Positions 1 to 17,828 of a DNA stretch of 34,743 bases are shown here, in pieces. The stretch is taken from contig CAIJYR010000202.1 of NCBI GenBank assembly GCA_903824965.1, forward strand, positions 1 to 34,743. Reading direction: 5' to 3'. Positions within the stretch are counted from its first letter, which is position 1, and every line of letters starts with the position of its first letter. The DNA comes from an uncultured Thiotrichales bacterium. GTDB taxonomy: Bacteria; Pseudomonadota; Gammaproteobacteria; CAIRSR01. The translations under genes and the position numbers were made by a program. Below the pieces are notes generated by a model that had not been told where the DNA came from, did no database searches, and saw nothing but the letters and a program-made list of their open reading frames with translations.

Positions 1-2161
1 GCAAGTGAGCCTGGAACAAAGTGCCAAGCCCATTCCAGGGATGAGCAAATTTTGGATCCAGTTCAATGGCCTTCCGATAGGCGGCCTCTGCTTCCTCATA
101 TCGGTGCACGTGATCCTGGAACAAATTGCCAAGCCCATTCCAGGGATAAGCAAATTTTGGATCCAGTTCAATGGCCTTCCGATAGGCGGCCTCTGCATCA
201 TCATGACGCGACAATTTATCGGTTAGTAATACAGCGAGTACATACCAACTTTGTGCAGTAACCGTTGTATCAGTGCTCAGGACTATTACTTTCCGCAGGA
301 CTTCCTCAGCGAGAGAAAACCAAGTGGAATGATTACTTAACTTCCAACCCAACCTCAAAAGATTGTATGGGCTTGTGCTTTCATCACTCGCTTTCTGAAC
401 CAGTGGTTTAATACGTTCAAAAAGTACCCGTTCTAGTTCCGGTAGTAAACTTCTTGTCGTCGAAGTATCCACCAAGGCCATTGCCACTCCGTCCGGTTGC
501 CCTACTTGTTCGGCACGATCGAAGGCACGCTGAGTAAGTCTACCACGATCATAGACACTACTCTGAAACTCAGGCCATACATCTACGCCTAACCATACCC
601 AGTAATCGGGCCATGTCTCCATGCTATGGAAAAGTGGTTCTCTATCATCCTTACGAATCGGCGCACATAGGAAACGTAGCAGTCCCTCACGAGGAGACTC
701 GTTGACGATCTCGGCCCATTCCCGTTGAGATTTATAGAGGCGCTCAAGAATCATCCGATTGTCTTCGTAAAGCTTCTCAAACTCATCCGATGCTTCATCA
801 AAGGACTTCATGAGTGCATTCACTTGGAATTGACTCATGGTTGGCAATGCGTTCAATACGCTTCGTTTCTCTTCCTTTAATAACGATATGGAATAACATA
901 ACTTTGTAATGAACAAATCTTCGTCTAACTCTACACCAGGAGACGGGCGCAGAATCTCAAGCCTTCGTGCTTTGATTCGCTCATGAGTTTGGTCTACTGG
1001 TGCCAAAGGCCAGTACCACGGCGGCAATGCTGTCAAAGGTGCTTGCATCGTAGAAGAAGGCGCGGATTTAGACAGCGACTTTCTGCTTGAGGGTGGCATC
1101 TCCTTGGGATCTGGCCTACTCTCTACTTGGGCCAGAGAGAGAATCCGACGACGCGAGCGGTGAATTGCCTCATCCATCAAAGCTTCACGATCTGCGTCGG
1201 ATATATTGCGAAGTTCGATCCAATCTGTGACAAGCTTGACCTCACGAGCATAGATAGAGTGAGGTCGCTGGAGGATCAGCGGTTTGTCACTGATGGCGAG
1301 TACCGAGGAATAGTGTAGGTAAAACATTTCCGGTGGCCGTTCCTGGATGCCACTTTGTGTATGTTTTCCAGATTGTTCAACCAGTGCATGTGCTCTATCC
1401 AAAGCGTCTAGAGTCTCGCCGTCATCACTGTTGGGAATGGGCGAGAATACCACTGCAAGTTGTTTCCGGTAGCTGTATAGCGGGATTTTATGATGGCGCA
1501 ATGCGTCTAGTGTCTGTTTTAGGCCAGCTTGGTTCTGTTCGTTCAGGCCAGCAACCGTAACGATACGATTCGGCAGATAACCAAGGCCAATATCCACCAT
1601 TTCTGGATAGCCCGTGCGACAATCAATAAAAACGTAGTCGATCTCTTTGCCATTGTGTTTGTACGAGAGTAGATCCTCGTGAATGGCTTTGGCAAGGGTA
1701 CGCAGACCTTTTTGATTGGCGGATTCTGATTGATCAGACGGTTCTGTATCCCAGCCGGATGGGATTTTGTGCAACAATGGCGTGAGTGTGGTATCAGTCG
1801 GACGAAACTTCGAACTACCCGCATCGATCACGAGTAACTGTCCAGACCCTGAGAAAGCGATACCCGCTTCTTGAAGACGCACCTCTCGCAATAACTTGGA
1901 GGGTGGTAAAAAACGGAAGTATTTTTCGTCGGATTCTTCCTGGTCATAATAGAGATCCAGTAGGTCACTCATGCCAAAACCGTGAGCCTCTGGGTCCACC
2001 CACGGGCCAAGGATGGGCATCAGCGACAATCCAGGTGCTGATAGATCTAAATCAATCAAGACAATGGTTTTTCCCCGTTCAGCGAGTTGTACCCCAACAT
2101 TGGTCAACAACGCTGTCCGTCCCACTCCGCCCTTGAAAGAGAAAAAGCTGATAATCTCCAT
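1..2161 (-). CDS. KGGVGR-variant ParA/MinD-like P-loop ATPase with C-terminal TPR repeats (partial, runs off left edge)
   Basis: Reverse complement from ATG at 2161 reads MEIISFFSFKGGVGRTALLTNVGVQLAERGKTIVLIDLDLSAPGLSLMPILGPWVDPEAHGFGMSDLLDLYYDQEES..., a deviant Walker A (KGGVGRT). The C-terminal end reads AEAAYRKAIELDPKFAYPWNGLGNLFQDHVHRYEEAEAAYRKAIELDPKFAHPWNGLGTLFQ (TPR). Codon phase was checked at 1636, 1048, 838 and 25 and is constant with 2161. Not in the ORF track because no stop lies inside the window. Confidence 0.88.
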   Translation of the reverse strand, partial: MEIISFFSFKGGVGRTALLTNVGVQLAERGKTIVLIDLDLSAPGLSLMPILGPWVDPEAHGFGMSDLLDLYYDQEESDEKYFRFLPPSKLLREVRLQEAGIAFSGSGQLLVIDAGSSKFRPTDTTLTPLLHKIPSGWDTEPSDQSESANQKGLRTLAKAIHEDLLSYKHNGKEIDYVFIDCRTGYPEMVDIGLGYLPNRIVTVAGLNEQNQAGLKQTLDALRHHKIPLYSYRKQLAVVFSPIPNSDDGETLDALDRAHALVEQSGKHTQSGIQERPPEMFYLHYSSVLAISDKPLILQRPHSIYAREVKLVTDWIELRNISDADREALMDEAIHRSRRRILSLAQVESRPDPKEMPPSSRKSLSKSAPSSTMQAPLTALPPWYWPLAPVDQTHERIKARRLEILRPSPGVELDEDLFITKLCYSISLLKEEKRSVLNALPTMSQFQVNALMKSFDEASDEFEKLYEDNRMILERLYKSQREWAEIVNESPREGLLRFLCAPIRKDDREPLFHSMETWPDYWVWLGVDVWPEFQSSVYDRGRLTQRAFDRAEQVGQPDGVAMALVDTSTTRSLLPELERVLFERIKPLVQKASDESTSPYNLLRLGWKLSNHSTWFSLAEEVLRKVIVLSTDTTVTAQSWYVLAVLLTDKLSRHDDAEAAYRKAIELDPKFAYPWNGLGNLFQDHVHRYEEAEAAYRKAIELDPKFAHPWNGLGTLFQAHL

Positions 2162-2223
2162 GACTTATAGCATCCAATGTTTGGTGAATGGTCGTCGAAG
2201 GCGCTGAGTATAACGGGTGTAGT

Positions 2224-3165
2224 CTATGCGGCTCTTTGCATTAGTATGGCCATCTTCGATCTGCGTGGGCGTTCTGCGGTTTTTCTGAGTTCTTGATACT
2301 CTTCAAGTAGAGGAATAGCGACATCTTCTAAAAACTCAAGAGAACAGGTTAGGTCGTCGTTCTTGTTTTTAGGGTCTACACAACATTCTTTTAATCCGCC
2401 CAAGAACAACTTTGCCCATGCAGGATCTGTTTCGAGGACGCACCCATGACGCCAGCACATGCCCCGCCAGCGGGAAAGAAATGCTTTGTCGGTACACATG
2501 CGGTGCATTTGGATAAAATACTTTTTCCCAGCTTCTTCGGGCATGACCTTTACGGCAGCGTTGTACAGCGTGAACAAGAGATCCAGGTTTTCGGGCTTGG
2601 CTTTTAAAACCGCGTCGAGTGTTTTTCGGATGACTGAGACTTGGTGTGGGGGCAACTCGTTTCCCAGATTAGGGTGAGAGGTGGCTACCCACAGTTCCAA
2701 TACTGCGTATGCCATGGATCGCTTCGATGCTTCCCTGATCAGAATCTCTTCCAAAGGCGGGGGCAAAGTCATCAAATACCCCCACAAGCTACCGAGCAGT
2801 TGTCGCGCAAGAGCGGGCGTATCCGTGACATGGCAGAATGCGACCAAACGGGCCAGATCATCAAGACGTGGTGTGGGTGCGTCTGTTTCGTGGAGCGTCT
2901 GTAAATACTGTTCCATGATCAACCGACGAAAACATTCCAATGCCTGAGGTGCATTGTCCTGTTTTGGGGTCAGATCCCGATAGAGATGGTAGAAGAGGAG
3001 GAGATGGTTCGGCTCGTGCGTGAGAAGTGACGGTGATACCAGGCCATGGACGGATTCGCTCTTGCCATCCAGACGTGCAAGCAAGACCTCCCGTGCCTGA
3101 CCGGTGCAGCCCCCCTCCATGAGGCGACGAAAACCCTTGACATAAGCATCAGCAGCATTGGCCAT
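2224..3165 (-). CDS. hypothetical helical protein, middle gene of the KGGVGR-ATPase operon
   Basis: 313-aa ORF whose ATG overlaps the upstream stop as TAATG at 3167-3163; same strand as the ATPase gene, with a 62-bp gap to it. No family recognised. Confidence 0.8.
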   Translation of the reverse strand: MANAADAYVKGFRRLMEGGCTGQAREVLLARLDGKSESVHGLVSPSLLTHEPNHLLLFYHLYRDLTPKQDNAPQALECFRRLIMEQYLQTLHETDAPTPRLDDLARLVAFCHVTDTPALARQLLGSLWGYLMTLPPPLEEILIREASKRSMAYAVLELWVATSHPNLGNELPPHQVSVIRKTLDAVLKAKPENLDLLFTLYNAAVKVMPEEAGKKYFIQMHRMCTDKAFLSRWRGMCWRHGCVLETDPAWAKLFLGGLKECCVDPKNKNDDLTCSLEFLEDVAIPLLEEYQELRKTAERPRRSKMAILMQRAA

Positions 3166-4028
3166 TAGACGCGATCCGGTTTCCAGGGGGGATAATAGGT
3201 GAGCTGGACGAAAGTGTCCTCTTCAAGATCGGCGTAGGGTATCGATTGAGAGATTAACTCCGGTCGTCCTTCATGCTTTGCACTGCTGGAAGCAACATCT
3301 GCTTCCTCTTTTGGAGCGGTGGGATCAGTATAGCCGTAGGGACGCTCGGTTAGATCGGGTGTAAAACGAGAATGCGCACCATAACCATCGATACTGCTTG
3401 GCTTATATAAACCCACAGGCAAATCGCTGACTTTAAGTGTAATTTCTACTGCGCCGTACCGTTCGGCAGCCTCAATGGTACCTTTCAACAGAGCCAATTC
3501 CTCGACATAGCTCTCTCCATCGGTGGGAGCACCCCGCAGCTCCGAAGACGTCCACCAGGTCCACCAGCACGGAAATCTCTCATTATGCATACGTCCTTGA
3601 AAAGCGAACTTGCCTACGCTGGCTTTTCCGTTCACGACCAATTTAGCCAACAGGTCATCTGCTCTCTCAAGATCCTCAGGAGTGTCCCCGAAATGATAGG
3701 CCGTGAAAGCATCCCCAGCTACTACCCTGCGCAACCATGTATCGCCTGGTAGGGTACATTGCTTCCCCGCTGCTTTTGGGCGAAAGGAATAGTGATCGCG
3801 CACCACCCCTTCAAGATGGCCTGTTGCATCTGCAACCTCCTTGCTGCAAGCCGCCTCGATTGACTGCTGGGCGCTCTGGCTGATGTTTCCGTGTTGACAC
3901 CACATAACAGGGTTGTGACGATCACGCCTGATGTTGTCCAGTGTACGCCGATACGTCCCCGCAGGGGTACCGTTCGAGTTCAACGCTTCTAACTGCCGCA
4001 AGAAAGAATCCATCAGGAATATTCTCAC
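3165..4028 (-). CDS. hypothetical protein, first gene of the KGGVGR-ATPase operon
   Basis: 287-aa ORF (GTG at 4028 or ATG at 4013), TAATG-coupled to the downstream ORF, preceded by a good sigma70-like promoter. No family recognised. Confidence 0.78.
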   Translation of the reverse strand: MRIFLMDSFLRQLEALNSNGTPAGTYRRTLDNIRRDRHNPVMWCQHGNISQSAQQSIEAACSKEVADATGHLEGVVRDHYSFRPKAAGKQCTLPGDTWLRRVVAGDAFTAYHFGDTPEDLERADDLLAKLVVNGKASVGKFAFQGRMHNERFPCWWTWWTSSELRGAPTDGESYVEELALLKGTIEAAERYGAVEITLKVSDLPVGLYKPSSIDGYGAHSRFTPDLTERPYGYTDPTAPKEEADVASSSAKHEGRPELISQSIPYADLEEDTFVQLTYYPPWKPDRV

Positions 4029-4088
4029 TGTTCAGATAGTTATGTGAGATGCACAAGTTCGCAAGGTTCGATGCCGATTTATCCCCCT

Positions 4089-4118
4089 ATTTTATCAAGC
4101 TTTGTTCTGGTTTGTCAA
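4089..4118 (-). promoter_or_regulatory. putative sigma70 promoter of the three-gene operon
   Basis: On the minus strand: TTGACA (4118-4113), 18-nt spacer, TAAAAT (4094-4089), about 60 bp upstream of the 4028 start. Confidence 0.6.
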
Positions 4119-4131
4119 CTGCATTGTCAGT

Positions 4132-6218
4132 CTAGTCCCGAACCCAGTCTTCTACCAATCGACTCGGTTCATGGGGTGATTCGGTCAGCGGAGGGACTGG
4201 CAAACCACGCAAATGACGCAAACTCATTCGTACCATATCGAAAATCACCACCCACAGTACCAACACGAAAAAGACAGTGAGACCGGCATCCAGACGTTGA
4301 TTAAAGATCAATTTCTCCGCGATGGCTGCTTTTTCTGGAGGCAAAGTGCCAAGGGCCAATTTGTCGGCTAAGTTGCTGGCTGCCGTCAGAAAACCAACAC
4401 GCACATCCTCGCTCATGATCTTTTCCCAAGCTGCGCTCGTCGTCACAAGGGCGAGCCATCCGAGTGGCAATCCCGTGATCCATGCGTGACGTCCTTGCCC
4501 AGATTTCACCAAGATACCGGTTGCGACCGAGAGCGCAATGGCCGCAAGCATCTGGTTAGAGATCCCAAACAGCGGCCAGAGAATATTCACCCCACCATTG
4601 GGATCGATCACGCCAATGTACAGAAAATAACCCCAAGCGGCCACAATCACCCCACTCGTCAACATCACAGACGGATACCAAGAAGTCCGACCCAAGGGTG
4701 CCCATAGGTTTCCGAGAAAATCCTGAAGCATGAATCGCCCGACCCGTGTACCGCATCCAAAGTCGATAGGATAAAAACCGCCTCGAACATAATGGCAAAG
4801 TGGTACCACAAAGAGAGCACCCCTTTTCCAAAGGCACTGCTAAAAATCATGGCCATCCCAATCGCAAGCGACGGTGCCCCTCCCGTGCGGGCAAAAAGAC
4901 TGCTTTCACCGGCCATCTGGGCGAGCTGATTCATGTGAGCAACGGTCACGGGAAAGCCCCACGAAGCAATGGTGGCCACCGCACTCGCTGCCGTTGTACC
5001 CACCACGCCCGATGGGCTGTTGATGGCAAAATAGACACCAGGCTCCAGAAGGGTAGCCGCAATCAATGCCATAATGGCCACAAACGATTCTAGTACCATG
5101 CCACCGTATCCAATGGGCCGAATGTCGCGCTCGTTGGCAAGTAATTTTGGCGTTGTGCCCGATGCAATCAGGGAATGAAAACCAGAGATGGCACCACAAG
5201 CAATCGTAATAAAGACAAAAGGAAACAGTTTTCCACCGAAGATAGGCCCAGTCCCATCCGTGAACCGCGTGAGCGCGGGCATTCGGATCTCCGGATGCAA
5301 AACGACAATGGCCACCGCGAGCAACAAAATGGTACCCAATTTCACAAAGGTAGAAAGATAATCACGCGGTGCCAGCAACAACCACACTGGCAAAACCGCA
5401 GCAAAAAAACCATACACAATCACAGCCCACGCAAGCGACAGGCCATCCTGATCAAACCAAGGACGCAACAGCGGTGAATGATCCACCCAACCACCACCAG
5501 CCACAGCAACGAGCAACAAAACCAGACCCAAAAGTGAACCCTCGATGATCCGTCCAGGGCGGATATCCCGCAAATACACGCCTACCAGCATAGCAATGGG
5601 AATGGTAGCCGCCACGGTAGACGTCGCCCAGGGGCTGTGTTTCATGGCATTGACCAACACCAACCCAAGCACTGCGATGAGAATCACCATGATCACGAGC
5701 GTTCCCACCAGGGCTGCGGCCCCTCCCATTGGGCCTAATTCATCGCGTGCCATTTGGCCAAGGCTGCGACCATCACGACGAGTGGAAAAAAACAGGATCA
5801 CCATATCCTGCACACAGCCTCCCAACACCGAACCGACTAAGATCCACAAGGTTCCCTGCAAATAACCAAACTGTGCTGCGAGGGTCGGCCCAATAAGGGG
5901 GCCAGGGCCAGCAATGGCCGCAAAATGATGCCCAAAGACGATCCATCGGTGGGTCGGCACAAAATCTCGAGCATTGTCGAAGCGTTCCGCAGGGGTCGCC
6001 CTGGTTTCATCGATCGCCAAAACCCGTGCCGCAATCCAAGCACTGTAAAAGCGATAGGCCAACGCATGGGTGGCAACTGCTGCGACGACAAACCATAGTG
6101 CATTGATGGTTTCCCCGCGAGCACTCGCAATCCCTCCCAGGGCGGAGGCTCCCGCAATGGCCACGAGTATCCAAAGCGTGTGACGTAACCAGCCCACGCT
6201 GGTCAGTGGCTTGATCAT
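4132..6218 (-). pseudogene. cstA: CstA-family carbon starvation / peptide transporter, split by a frameshift
   Basis: ORF 4665..6218 gives CstA N-terminal and central parts ([56 protein letters not shown]). ORF 4132..4809 continues in another frame ([21 protein letters not shown]...GVNILWPLFGISNQMLAAIAL). The junction is TTGGATGCGGTACACGGG, where TTG GAT GCG GGT ACA CGG would restore LDAGTR. Confidence 0.85.
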
Positions 6219-11659: not shown

Positions 11660-12440
11660 ATCCACGCGCCTCAGGGCGAGGTTTCTCGGAGATATCGATG
11701 ACGTTTCTGCCACACAGGTGGAAAGTATTTCTTTTTTTTATCAGAAACGACAGTTACCATCGGTATCTACGCCATCACGAAATGGCACATGCTGATACTG
11801 CACCGATGAGTCGGCGCGATTTTTATCTACGGGAACAAGAACGCAAGTGGAGCGGAATACGTCGTTGTTGCTAACGCACAGCATAACGATACACGCCAGA
11901 TCCGTGATGAGCACGCAACGGCCACTCCCTAAACCTCACCATGTGATCCGACCCCAATTTCTCTGGACACGAATTTGGTGTTACATCGTGTCTGAAGAGG
12001 AGGAGTCAGCGATGTTAAGAGAATCGGAGGCAGCTGCACCAACCTGTGGCACCATGCACGACCGCGACCTCAATGCAGCAAAAAGCCTTGAGAAAGGGGC
12101 CGCAAGCTCTGCGGTCTCAGCCTATGGAGAGGACGGCGCTGGCCTTCGACGGTCGTTGAAGGTGAAACCAGCCTCTGTGAAGCAGGAACCGAACACCGGA
12201 TGTCTCGGCGGTTGTGCTGCAAAATAAATGGGTAAGTTTCGGAGAACGGTTTGACATGAGCGTGTGACGAAGGCGATACTACCTCCATATTCGCGCTGTT
12301 TGCCTAGCATTCAGATTCACTCTAAGTGCGCTTCCTCAATAGCCCCGTAAGGGCTTGTTTTGTAAAGGGGAAAGGAGATGGTGAAAAGCGTCTCTTTTCC
12401 TCCTCGTCCTGAAGGGCGGGATTTCTCGGAGGCATTGATG
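11660..12440 (+). mobile_element. Degraded IS200/IS605-type element (tnpB remnant with putative fold-back ends)
   Basis: tnpB C-terminal remnant bracketed by two similar hairpin-containing motifs: GCGCCTCAGGGCGAGGTTTCTCGGAGATATCGATGAC (~11669) and GTCCTGAAGGGCGGGATTTCTCGGAGGCATTGATGAC (~12405). Outer boundaries are approximate. Confidence 0.6.
12012..12227 (+). pseudogene. tnpB: tnpB (IS605 OrfB) C-terminal remnant
   Basis: Reads ...APTCGTMHDRDLNAAKSLEKGAASSAVSAYGEDGAGLRRSLKVKPASVKQEPNT, the characteristic CG-x-x-HDRDxNAA and VSACGEDGAG...KPASVKQE tail of IS605-family TnpB. The upstream RuvC body is missing. Confidence 0.82.
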
Positions 12441-14957: not shown

Positions 14958-15611
14958 TTATCTAGGGTGCGAGGCTACATGGCCACCATAGAGCGTTGTT
15001 TCTACAAGTGAACAAAGGACATGCCCGATAAAAATATGACCTTCTTGGATGCGTGGTGTACTGGTAGACGGGACAGCGATAAGGTAATCACAGTGGTGCA
15101 GCATGGCGTGTCCGTTGGCACCCGTAAGACCGACGGTCGTGAGACCCAAAGCGCGTGCTTCGGCCAATGCACTGAGGATATTGCGGGAACTGCCTGAAGT
15201 GGAAATCCCCACAAACAAATCTCCAGGGCGTCCGTGCGCTTGGATCTGGCGCAAGAACAAGGCTTCGTACCCGTAATCGTTGGCGATGGCGGTTAGAATC
15301 GAGGTATTGGCTGTCAGCGCAATGGCTGCGAGTGCGGGGCGATCGAACGAGAAACGACCCACCAATTCTGCGGCGATGTGTTGGGCATCAGCGGCTGATC
15401 CGCCATTGCCTGCCAACAGGATTTGGCCACGGGCGCGGTACACGGCCACTATTTTCTCAGCCACGGCCAGCACATTGGTCAGCAACGCTTCGTCTGTGAG
15501 CATGGCTTGTTTGACCAACACCGATTCTTCGACTTGGCGGCGTATCGATTCGATCGCCAAAACATCGAGTGATCCATGCAGAGGATCTGTATTTCTTTTA
15601 TGGTCTATCAA
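14958..15611 (-). CDS. gmhA: D-sedoheptulose-7-phosphate isomerase (SIS domain)
   Basis: IRRQVEESVLVKQAML...RGQILLAGNGGSAADAQHIAAELVGRFSFDRPALAAIALTANTSILTAIANDYGYEALFLRQIQAHGRPGDLFVGISTSGSSRNI. Confidence 0.93.
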   Translation of the reverse strand: MIDHKRNTDPLHGSLDVLAIESIRRQVEESVLVKQAMLTDEALLTNVLAVAEKIVAVYRARGQILLAGNGGSAADAQHIAAELVGRFSFDRPALAAIALTANTSILTAIANDYGYEALFLRQIQAHGRPGDLFVGISTSGSSRNILSALAEARALGLTTVGLTGANGHAMLHHCDYLIAVPSTSTPRIQEGHIFIGHVLCSLVETTLYGGHVASHPR

Positions 15612-16183
15612 TGGTTTCTCCTTTCCTTGCGCTTTTGAACAGAAATCACTGTATTGCCACGCAAGAAATCCTGGAAGCGGTCTTTTTTCGCATGATAAAG
15701 ATAATTATCAGTACCAAAACATCCCTTCAGCAGTTTTTGGTCGTGAATATGTTCATGTGGTGCTGTTCCATGGTGTGCAATCAAGAATGCTTTTACAGCA
15801 TAGCGATGACTAGAAAAATCGATGCTTTGCTTGATGGATTCATACGTACTGATAACCTGCTGCGCTGCATGATGGAGATCCTTAGCATTGTCTTTTAATT
15901 CTACGAAACAAAGAACCCTTCTACCTGTTCTCCGATGCTCATAAAAAACGACGAGATCGCAAATGCTATACCCCTCTTGGTCGCCCCATAATTTATCCCG
16001 CAGATGGCAACCACGACACTTTTCGTGTCCTTTTGAATGATTGTCGATACAAAAGAATAATATCGTCTCATCCGGTTGTTGATCAATCCTAATACTGGTA
16101 TTATTTTCCTTGAAAGTAGTGAGTCCATGTAAAAGACATGATTCTAATAACCTGCCAAGTTCGCCAAGATTATCCAGTGACAT
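15608..16183 (-). CDS. Putative PD-(D/E)XK nuclease-like protein, partner of the ATPase
   Basis: SICDLVVFYEHRRTGRRVLCFVELKDNAKDLHHAAQQVISTYESI fits a D-(X)n-ExK core; also CIDNHSKGHEKCRGCH cysteines. 10-bp gap to the ATPase gene; ATGA-type overlap with the gmhA start. Confidence 0.65.
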   Translation of the reverse strand: MSLDNLGELGRLLESCLLHGLTTFKENNTSIRIDQQPDETILFFCIDNHSKGHEKCRGCHLRDKLWGDQEGYSICDLVVFYEHRRTGRRVLCFVELKDNAKDLHHAAQQVISTYESIKQSIDFSSHRYAVKAFLIAHHGTAPHEHIHDQKLLKGCFGTDNYLYHAKKDRFQDFLRGNTVISVQKRKERRNH

Positions 16184-16193
16184 AGGCGTACCT

Positions 16194-17606
16194 TCACGCT
16201 ATATGAGAGTAGATTTCTGATATCTCTCTTGATACATCACTAAACGTATCCCAGTCAATCACCTTGTCCTCGGAGAGCATGTTTTTTACCTCGCCCTTCT
16301 CATTGAATAGATAAACGGATACGAGTTCTTTAGGTACAAAGGCATCTTCTCGTCCAAGATAGAAATGGTCTTTTATCGAAGACTTATCTGGCGAATCGAA
16401 TGCACTCATCAAATTGGTGAGATGATCCACAATATAGGGACTGTGGGTCGTGATCAAGAGAGACAATCCAGCGTTTACAAGCATTCCCATGAACTCTGTC
16501 ATTTTTGCCTGCGCAGAGGGATGCAAATTCATTTCTGGTTCGTCAATCACAATTAGATCGCGTGGGTTTGCAAGATACTTTAAGTAGATAGAGAGTGAAG
16601 CTATATCTTTGATCATGGAAGAGGCAACATGGATCTCCAGGCTCTTTGCCCCTGCTGGAGTATATAAAATATCTGTACCTCCCTCGCGATCTTCAAAATC
16701 TACTTTTCCATCAAGGACGTTTTCTTCGAGGAAATGGGCAAGTTTTATTAGCTTGTTAATCTCTGGGTTGTCACGGCCTTCTTTTTCTCGATCGAAATAC
16801 CGACTCTGCGCAGTATTGATCATTGCAAAGAAATACCTTACCGGCTCAGAAAGAACGACATATCTTGATTGGTTCACCTCTTCCTCGTCTTGCATCACAT
16901 CCACTTTTTGCTGATCTTTTGTATCCTTCTTTTGTGTCACAGGCAAAGTAACCCATGCAGTTCTTTCAACAGGGAACACAGGGGTATTATGTGCTAACAG
17001 CATAGATAGGGTGCCAAATAAAGCATTTACAACGAATACTCGCGCCTCTCTGTTCTTGATAAGAGATGGTATATCGACCGACTCATTGGTAATATAAAAA
17101 TAGAGATTTTCCTTATCTTGTACCGCTTTTAATGCCAATAAGATATTCTGGTTTTTACCAACGGAGCGTTTCGCTTCTATGCCAGTCTTCTCCAAGACCT
17201 TCATGATCTTTCCCATGTCAAGCATGGTAATCTCTACAGATACAACCGTCTTATCGAAACGTACCCTTTTGGTTGCCATGAAAATACCCAACCATTCAGG
17301 AATCAGTCGGGCGATTTCATTGATGTAACGCTCCAGATGATCAACAACGAATTTCCTTAGATCAATCGTCACAGCACCCTTGTCAGTAAGGGTCTCGATG
17401 GCATCCTCTACAGCCTCGAAGGTAGCAGTCTTGCCGTTGAGGTACGCTTCTAGATATCTCTGTCGTCCATAAGGGCCGAGCAGCCCTGCAATGGTGTACG
17501 CGGCCCACGTTTTACAGGTACCGTTTTCACCTAGGAATACAGTAAAAGGCTTTAGCTCAATCTGTGCATGTTTAATTATGCCCAAATGAGAGATATTGAT
17601 CTTCAT
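16194..17606 (-). CDS. AAA_21/OLD-like ABC-type ATPase
   Basis: MKINISHLGIIKHAQIELKPFTVFLGENGTCKTWAAYTIAGLLG...; Walker B and H-loop: NPRDLIVIDEPEMNLHPSAQAKMTEFMGMLVNAGLSLLITTHSPYIVDHLTNLM. Start set at the internal ATG 17606 because the ORF-track N-terminus (to 17738) comes from REP-like sequence. Confidence 0.85.
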   Translation of the reverse strand: MKINISHLGIIKHAQIELKPFTVFLGENGTCKTWAAYTIAGLLGPYGRQRYLEAYLNGKTATFEAVEDAIETLTDKGAVTIDLRKFVVDHLERYINEIARLIPEWLGIFMATKRVRFDKTVVSVEITMLDMGKIMKVLEKTGIEAKRSVGKNQNILLALKAVQDKENLYFYITNESVDIPSLIKNREARVFVVNALFGTLSMLLAHNTPVFPVERTAWVTLPVTQKKDTKDQQKVDVMQDEEEVNQSRYVVLSEPVRYFFAMINTAQSRYFDREKEGRDNPEINKLIKLAHFLEENVLDGKVDFEDREGGTDILYTPAGAKSLEIHVASSMIKDIASLSIYLKYLANPRDLIVIDEPEMNLHPSAQAKMTEFMGMLVNAGLSLLITTHSPYIVDHLTNLMSAFDSPDKSSIKDHFYLGREDAFVPKELVSVYLFNEKGEVKNMLSEDKVIDWDTFSDVSREISEIYSHIA

Positions 17607-17639
17607 AATGACAGCAGACCTGTTGATTAAGATTCTGAC

Positions 17640-17828
17640 TTTCAGATCGCCCCTCTCCTGGAAGGAGAGGGGTTGGGGAGAGGAGGGGGCTGGTTCTGAT
17701 TTGTCTTTAGATTTGATGATTTTAAAATTAAGATTCAAGATTAAAATCAGTATTCAAGATCAAGTTCAAGATCAAGATAAGATCAACCCATCCCCCAGCC
17801 CCTTCCCGAATCATCGGGAAGGGGTTTA
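17640..17828. repeat. Composite REP-like repeat, left inverted copy (downstream of gyrB)
   Basis: Two palindromes (cccctctcctggaaggagagggg; ccccttcccgaatcatcgggaagggg) separated by an AAGATCAAG-rich stretch. Confidence 0.75.

Follow-up and report, generated by a model that had tools for sequence, protein, structure and literature searches.

A candidate conflict operon pairing a KGGVGR-type NTPase with two near-orphan proteins in an uncultured Thiotrichales bacterium

Two genes whose products match no described family precede a gene for a variant NTPase, which raises the question of whether the three act together and in what process. They lie at the left end of a contig of 34,743 nucleotides (C202, analysed over its full length and called the window here), which is part of a 3.22-Mb draft genome of an uncultured Thiotrichales bacterium in 265 contigs. 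The genes, designated A, B and C, form a minus-strand operon that is read leftwards from a sigma-70-like promoter at 4089..4118 (−). The boxes of this promoter, TTGACA (4118-4113) and TAAAAT (4094-4089), are separated by an 18-nt spacer (TTGACA-N18-TAAAAT) and accompanied by an extended TG, with 11 of 12 matches; in mononucleotide shuffles, an equally good promoter was expected by chance in the 103-nt gap with p ~0.0007. Position 4118, given in an earlier note on this DNA as the edge of the trio, does mark the promoter, but the reading frame of A starts at 4028. The stop codon of A and the start codon of B share bases as TAATG, and B is followed after 62 bp by C, with no terminator-like site in the B-C gap. 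Codon usage favoured the annotated frames of A, B and C (+0.10, +0.15 and +0.12 bits per codon, respectively), and the other five frames of each gene scored −0.02 to −0.25 bits per codon. The genes of the host score 0.155-0.325, and the three genes are thus somewhat atypical. Because their codon usage departs only somewhat from that of the host and the GC content of A and B is close to the host's, a recent import is not obvious. The consensus-like promoter, the three minus-strand genes and their order, a 287-aa protein TAATG-coupled to a 313-aa protein and then a KGGVGR ATPase-TPR protein, were all described in the earlier note and are confirmed here. Its proposal that A, B and C form a functional unit is supported by their own promoter, the A/B overlap and the common strand; the unit centres on an NTPase whose family recurs in defence and conflict loci.

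Gene C (1..2161, −) encodes the first 720 residues of the KGGVGR-ATPase/TPR protein and is truncated by the contig end. Residues 1-221 (1499..2161, −) make up the ATPase domain recognised with the NCBIfam model AAA_KGGVGR (NF047398), residues 222-634 (260..1498, −) a linker with no recognised domain, and 1..259 (−) the start of an array of 102-bp units identified by TPR matches and as repeats. The KGGVGR motif occupies residues 10-15 and is present as SFKGGVGRTALLTN at residues 8-21; the ATPase is further characterised by its SFKGGVGRT P-loop, VLIDLDLSAPGL and YVFIDCRTG. The score against NF047398 was 100.8 bits (104.4 bits at the genome level, in the same place), and with a curated cut-off of 90 bits C is, as judged from its sequence, a member of the AAA_KGGVGR domain family. 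An assignment of C as a ParA/MinD partition or division ATPase orthologue was rejected, since the protein fails every curated MinD/ParA cut-off by a wide margin (~22-29 bits versus cut-offs of at least 180).

The operon had previously been taken to end at the window edge, a view that did not hold. The right end of another contig of the same genome (G000:C265) carries the 102-bp TPR units of the window in the same orientation, as found with TRF. The repeat phase equates C265:9445 with window position 72 and implies an in-frame gap between C202 and C265 of 30 bp plus a multiple of 102 bp; the two contigs share no exact overlap. We infer, rather than read from sequence across the junction, that C continues onto C265 and stops at L012:8121, directly before rpmH, which is followed by rnpA and yidC. 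The joined protein would have at least about 1,170 residues: after the ATPase and the linker come eight or more full TPR units, and a tail closes the C-terminus. No counterpart of this tail was found in 94 other genomes, nor did the other genomes searched contain the same combination of a linker, a tandem array of near-identical TPRs and a tail. The eight complete units over both contigs are on average 79% identical in DNA and 72% in protein; 16 of the 34 positions in a unit are invariant, the most variable being 19, 21, 28 and 31-34, and dN/dS between units is ~0.43. These values agree with a recent expansion of the array in which the scaffold was conserved and the surface varied, and because of that pattern we read the array as probably sensor-like.

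The products of A and B gave far less to work with. Gene A (3165..4028, −; 287 aa) has a GTG start, with an alternative ATG at 4013, and its frame is backed by codon usage. No match to Pfam, NCBIfam or PADLOC was obtained up to E=1, and the PDB held no credible match to a solved structure. Its sole detected relative consists of two frame-broken pieces in G003, a genome of the same family, with 36% and 34% identity. This relative, recognised by sequence match, stands alone at L013:912-1921 (G003:C241, −) next to a short unknown and then a protein that we read as EVE-like, and neither B nor C is beside it. A 37% identity alignment with L013:915-1253 delineates a conserved C-terminal region of A (residues 141-265; 3234..3608, −) with the motifs R-[FL]-P-x-W-W-T ... 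Y-x-E-E-L-A-L ... L-Y-K-P-x-x-x-D ... F-x-P ... P-x-G-x-T. No further relatives appeared in 95 related genomes, plasmids, phages and viral contigs, and a profile search of 398 genomes of the phylum found none. Two pattern scans of genome contigs, limited to two short patterns each and so liable to miss relatives, also returned nothing. A match in G088 (E 8e-4) was put down to chance, since it overlaps the fragment of a LysR-type regulator, and the KPxxxD likeness of a 247-aa protein of G050 was unsupported by BLASTP. An AlphaFold model of A computed without an alignment was unusable (mean pLDDT 34).

Gene B (2224..3165, −; 313 aa) is likewise an orphan. It is predicted to be all-helical: the AlphaFold model without an alignment was helical throughout at low confidence (mean pLDDT 52.5), and a fold search with this model gave no match below E 0.08. 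Pfam, NCBIfam and PADLOC yielded nothing for B up to E=1, the PDB offered no credible solved-structure match, and no homologues were found in the relatives, the class or phylum samples, plasmids or viral contigs. A match in G443 (E 0.0045) was discarded, as a transporter-like ORF occupies the other strand there, and BLASTP gave no support to a likeness with a 346-aa protein of G050. Within the data searched, A and B therefore appear from sequence to be near-orphans, in agreement with their initial description as two unrecognised partners.

If the trio is so rare, how did it come to this site? The gene next to the promoter is cstA (4132-6218, −), which the earlier note had called decaying. The adjacency is correct, but the decay was overstated, because cstA has a single frameshift near 4752-4755, possibly a sequencing error, and the halves on either side are 82-86% identical to intact relatives, such as the 703-709-aa cstA of G001 and G003. 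In these two genomes a dedA-like gene and cstA are kept together; what follows cstA differs, and the trio is absent. Upstream of rpmH the sequence is likewise different in G002 and G003, and in G001 this region meets a contig end. Neither B nor the tail of C occurs in the other member of the genus, in the two other members of the family or in the class sample. Since the matching sites examined in close relatives have no trio, it looks, from these comparisons, like a lineage-specific insertion. A second copy of A-B-C was not found in anything searched, an outcome that the earlier note had listed as counting against its own reading; the searches covered samples of genomes that could have missed a distant trio, and rarity would also explain its absence.

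The ATPase family offers the main context for the operon. NF047398 exceeded its cut-off in 14 of 369 genomes of the class, so that the family is sparse. By profile, PDC-M28 components (in PADLOC M28A, the KGGVGR ATPase M28B and the ATPase M28C) occur as B and C in G001 and as A, B and C in G092, and inspection showed a PDC-M28-like layout in G073, G138, G268 and G705. The set of G092 (L050) sits among type I R-M genes, and a BREX locus on a Thiodictyon plasmid has a PDC-M28-similar set between pglX and a phage-resistance gene. Other KGGVGR genes neighbour TIR, FRG/SIR2, caspase and SAV_2336, or MqsA-like regulators; that of L046 is fused to REase-like (Mrr-like nuclease), WD40-like and, in our reading, NACHT-like regions, and that of L047 to an ORC-CDC6-like region. 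Several follow one or two small variable genes, in the same layout as here. On plasmids, the ATPase part of C alone matched 33 records, and the whole window part of C gave no match at 1e-10. Among the papers searched, none names the KGGVGR motif. At L047:4311-9859 (G050:C19), two unrecognised overlapping genes (247 aa and 346 aa) lie directly upstream of a 946-aa KGGVGR/ORC-CDC6-like NTPase, with a further unknown 321-aa gene; this locus may represent another undescribed KGGVGR set. It shares with ours the two unrecognised genes upstream of the NTPase, but the partners have no sequence similarity to A or B, and the C-terminal part of its NTPase is ORC-CDC6-like rather than TPR. The NF047398 proteins as a group have the ATPase domain in common with C, and its linker, TPR and tail combination was not found in those of the other genomes searched.

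Because of this family context, the best single reading of the operon is a conflict role, most likely against phages or mobile genetic elements. We give about even chances to a rare, lineage-specific conflict system based on a KGGVGR-type MinD/ParA-like NTPase. The conflict role is drawn by analogy from the family of C, which recurs in defence and conflict loci, and to that extent the defence function suggested earlier is partly supported; the contributions of A and B are conjectural, and the trio was not found elsewhere in the data searched. Its patchy occurrence and the differing neighbourhoods would suit conflict genes that move as a set. Kaur et al. (2020; PMC7159879) placed MinD/ParA-like domains, predicted to be inactive, among the effector domains of NTP-dependent conflict systems. 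Our operon has in common with these systems a variant MinD/ParA-like NTPase, TPRs and rapidly diverging partners, but their MoxR, vWA and VMAP components were not detected in A or B. A VMAP/MoxR-vWA ternary system was accordingly set aside, as no MoxR AAA+, vWA or VMAP domain of Pfam or NCBIfam was present in A, B or C. So was a STAND/AVAST-type sensor: the repeats of C accompany a MinD/ParA-like NTPase, and no STAND domain is present in the protein. Counting against a conflict system is that neither A nor B has a recognised effector domain, that the sole relative of A lies apart from any B or C, and that housekeeping genes surround the trio; since no intact second A or B was found, their co-occurrence with C cannot be shown.

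Could the operon instead be a divergent version of a known system? PDC-M28 is the nearest candidate, being likewise a three-gene unit with a KGGVGR ATPase, coupled frames and a small variable upstream partner, and its genes are present in the same genus (G001; PDC-M28B and C at L048:4663-7387 on G001:C24). The match of C to PDC-M28B is confined to the ATPase (62.6 bits, residues 4-255), whereas genuine M28B proteins reach 407-582 bits along the full sequence and have M28A or M28C alongside. M28A and M28C are unrelated by profile to A and B, which have no PADLOC match at E<=1, and the next genes on C265 are rpmH-rnpA-yidC. C also differs in having an N-terminal ATPase followed by a linker and a long TPR array, as does the gene order. 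A divergent PDC-M28 system is thus largely refuted and very improbable.

Of more weight is the view that the operon is a host regulatory or scaffolding unit with no part in defence, for instance MinD/ParA-like positioning combined with a TPR scaffold that lies near rpmH by chance. Housekeeping genes on both flanks, the MinD/ParA fold and the common use of TPR proteins as scaffolds speak for it. Against it, B and the tail of C do not occur in the other genus member, the two other family members or the class sample, C falls far below the MinD/ParA cut-offs while exceeding that of KGGVGR, and KGGVGR relatives are in conflict loci; we regard the host unit as rather unlikely, yet the most serious of the rivals. 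The TAATG overlap, compared with the 62 bp that separate C, and the occurrence of a broken A alone in G003 could alternatively mean that A and B are an effector-antitoxin-like pair next to a C that acts separately. The single promoter and a B-C gap free of terminator-like sites argue otherwise, and a search of G003 revealed no B, so that A was not retained in that genome together with a partner B; we hold this pairing to be improbable. Orphan proteins, the broken relative of A and the frameshifted cstA next door might also suggest a decaying, non-functional insertion of foreign genes; three open frames with coding-like codon usage, a dN/dS of the TPR units of ~0.43 and the retention of a good promoter make decay more improbable still.

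Returning to a conflict system, a more specific version would be an undescribed three-component defence system in which two undescribed families are controlled by a KGGVGR NTPase that acts as a switch and bears a rapidly evolving array of TPRs as its sensor, A being a new type of effector. We advance this version tentatively, as a possibility well short of an even chance. For the conflict system in general, we propose that the tandem-TPR superhelix of C senses, or offers a docking site for, a cue that comes from an invader or from damage; binding of the cue might change how the variant NTPase dimerises or which state it adopts. An arginine replaces the usual lysine of the P-loop, for which reason the NTPase would switch slowly and not act as a motor. 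B, helical and encoded on the same message, may be an adaptor or brake that tethers A to C, and A, which has the conserved C-terminal motif region, might then be released or activated as the effector. What A and B each do, and in which sequence the steps follow, we infer from the layout only, and each step is held with low confidence. KGGVGR NTPases recur in defence loci, and a variant with a single sensor-like array and two small partners would be a compact case for probing how the variant NTPase functions. The operon is a one-genome example, and its weight hinges on a second copy or a phenotype.

The surroundings of the trio were also inspected. Rather than a defence island, housekeeping genes flank it on both sides; the closest genes of defence-like type lie some 12 kb off (16194-17738) or towards the far end of C265. 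The gene at 16194-17738 (−) encodes an AAA_15 ATPase (Pfam AAA_15) that matches PADLOC PD-T4-4_A at 1.1e-50; at 10 bp from it, 15608-16183 (−) encodes a 191-aa partner with only a weak match to PDC-M29B (7e-5). This pair, at 15608-17738, is possibly a PD-T4-4-like two-gene defence system. On C265, L012:1459-3240 (+) encodes a 593-aa DrmB-like protein (PADLOC DrmB, 8.6e-54; MZB domain), with no other DISARM genes seen on that contig. Finally, window positions 11761-11877 are ~80% identical to DNA that follows cstA in G001 (L060:3777-3893) and, in part, in G003, a pattern that a small mobile element or repeat would explain.
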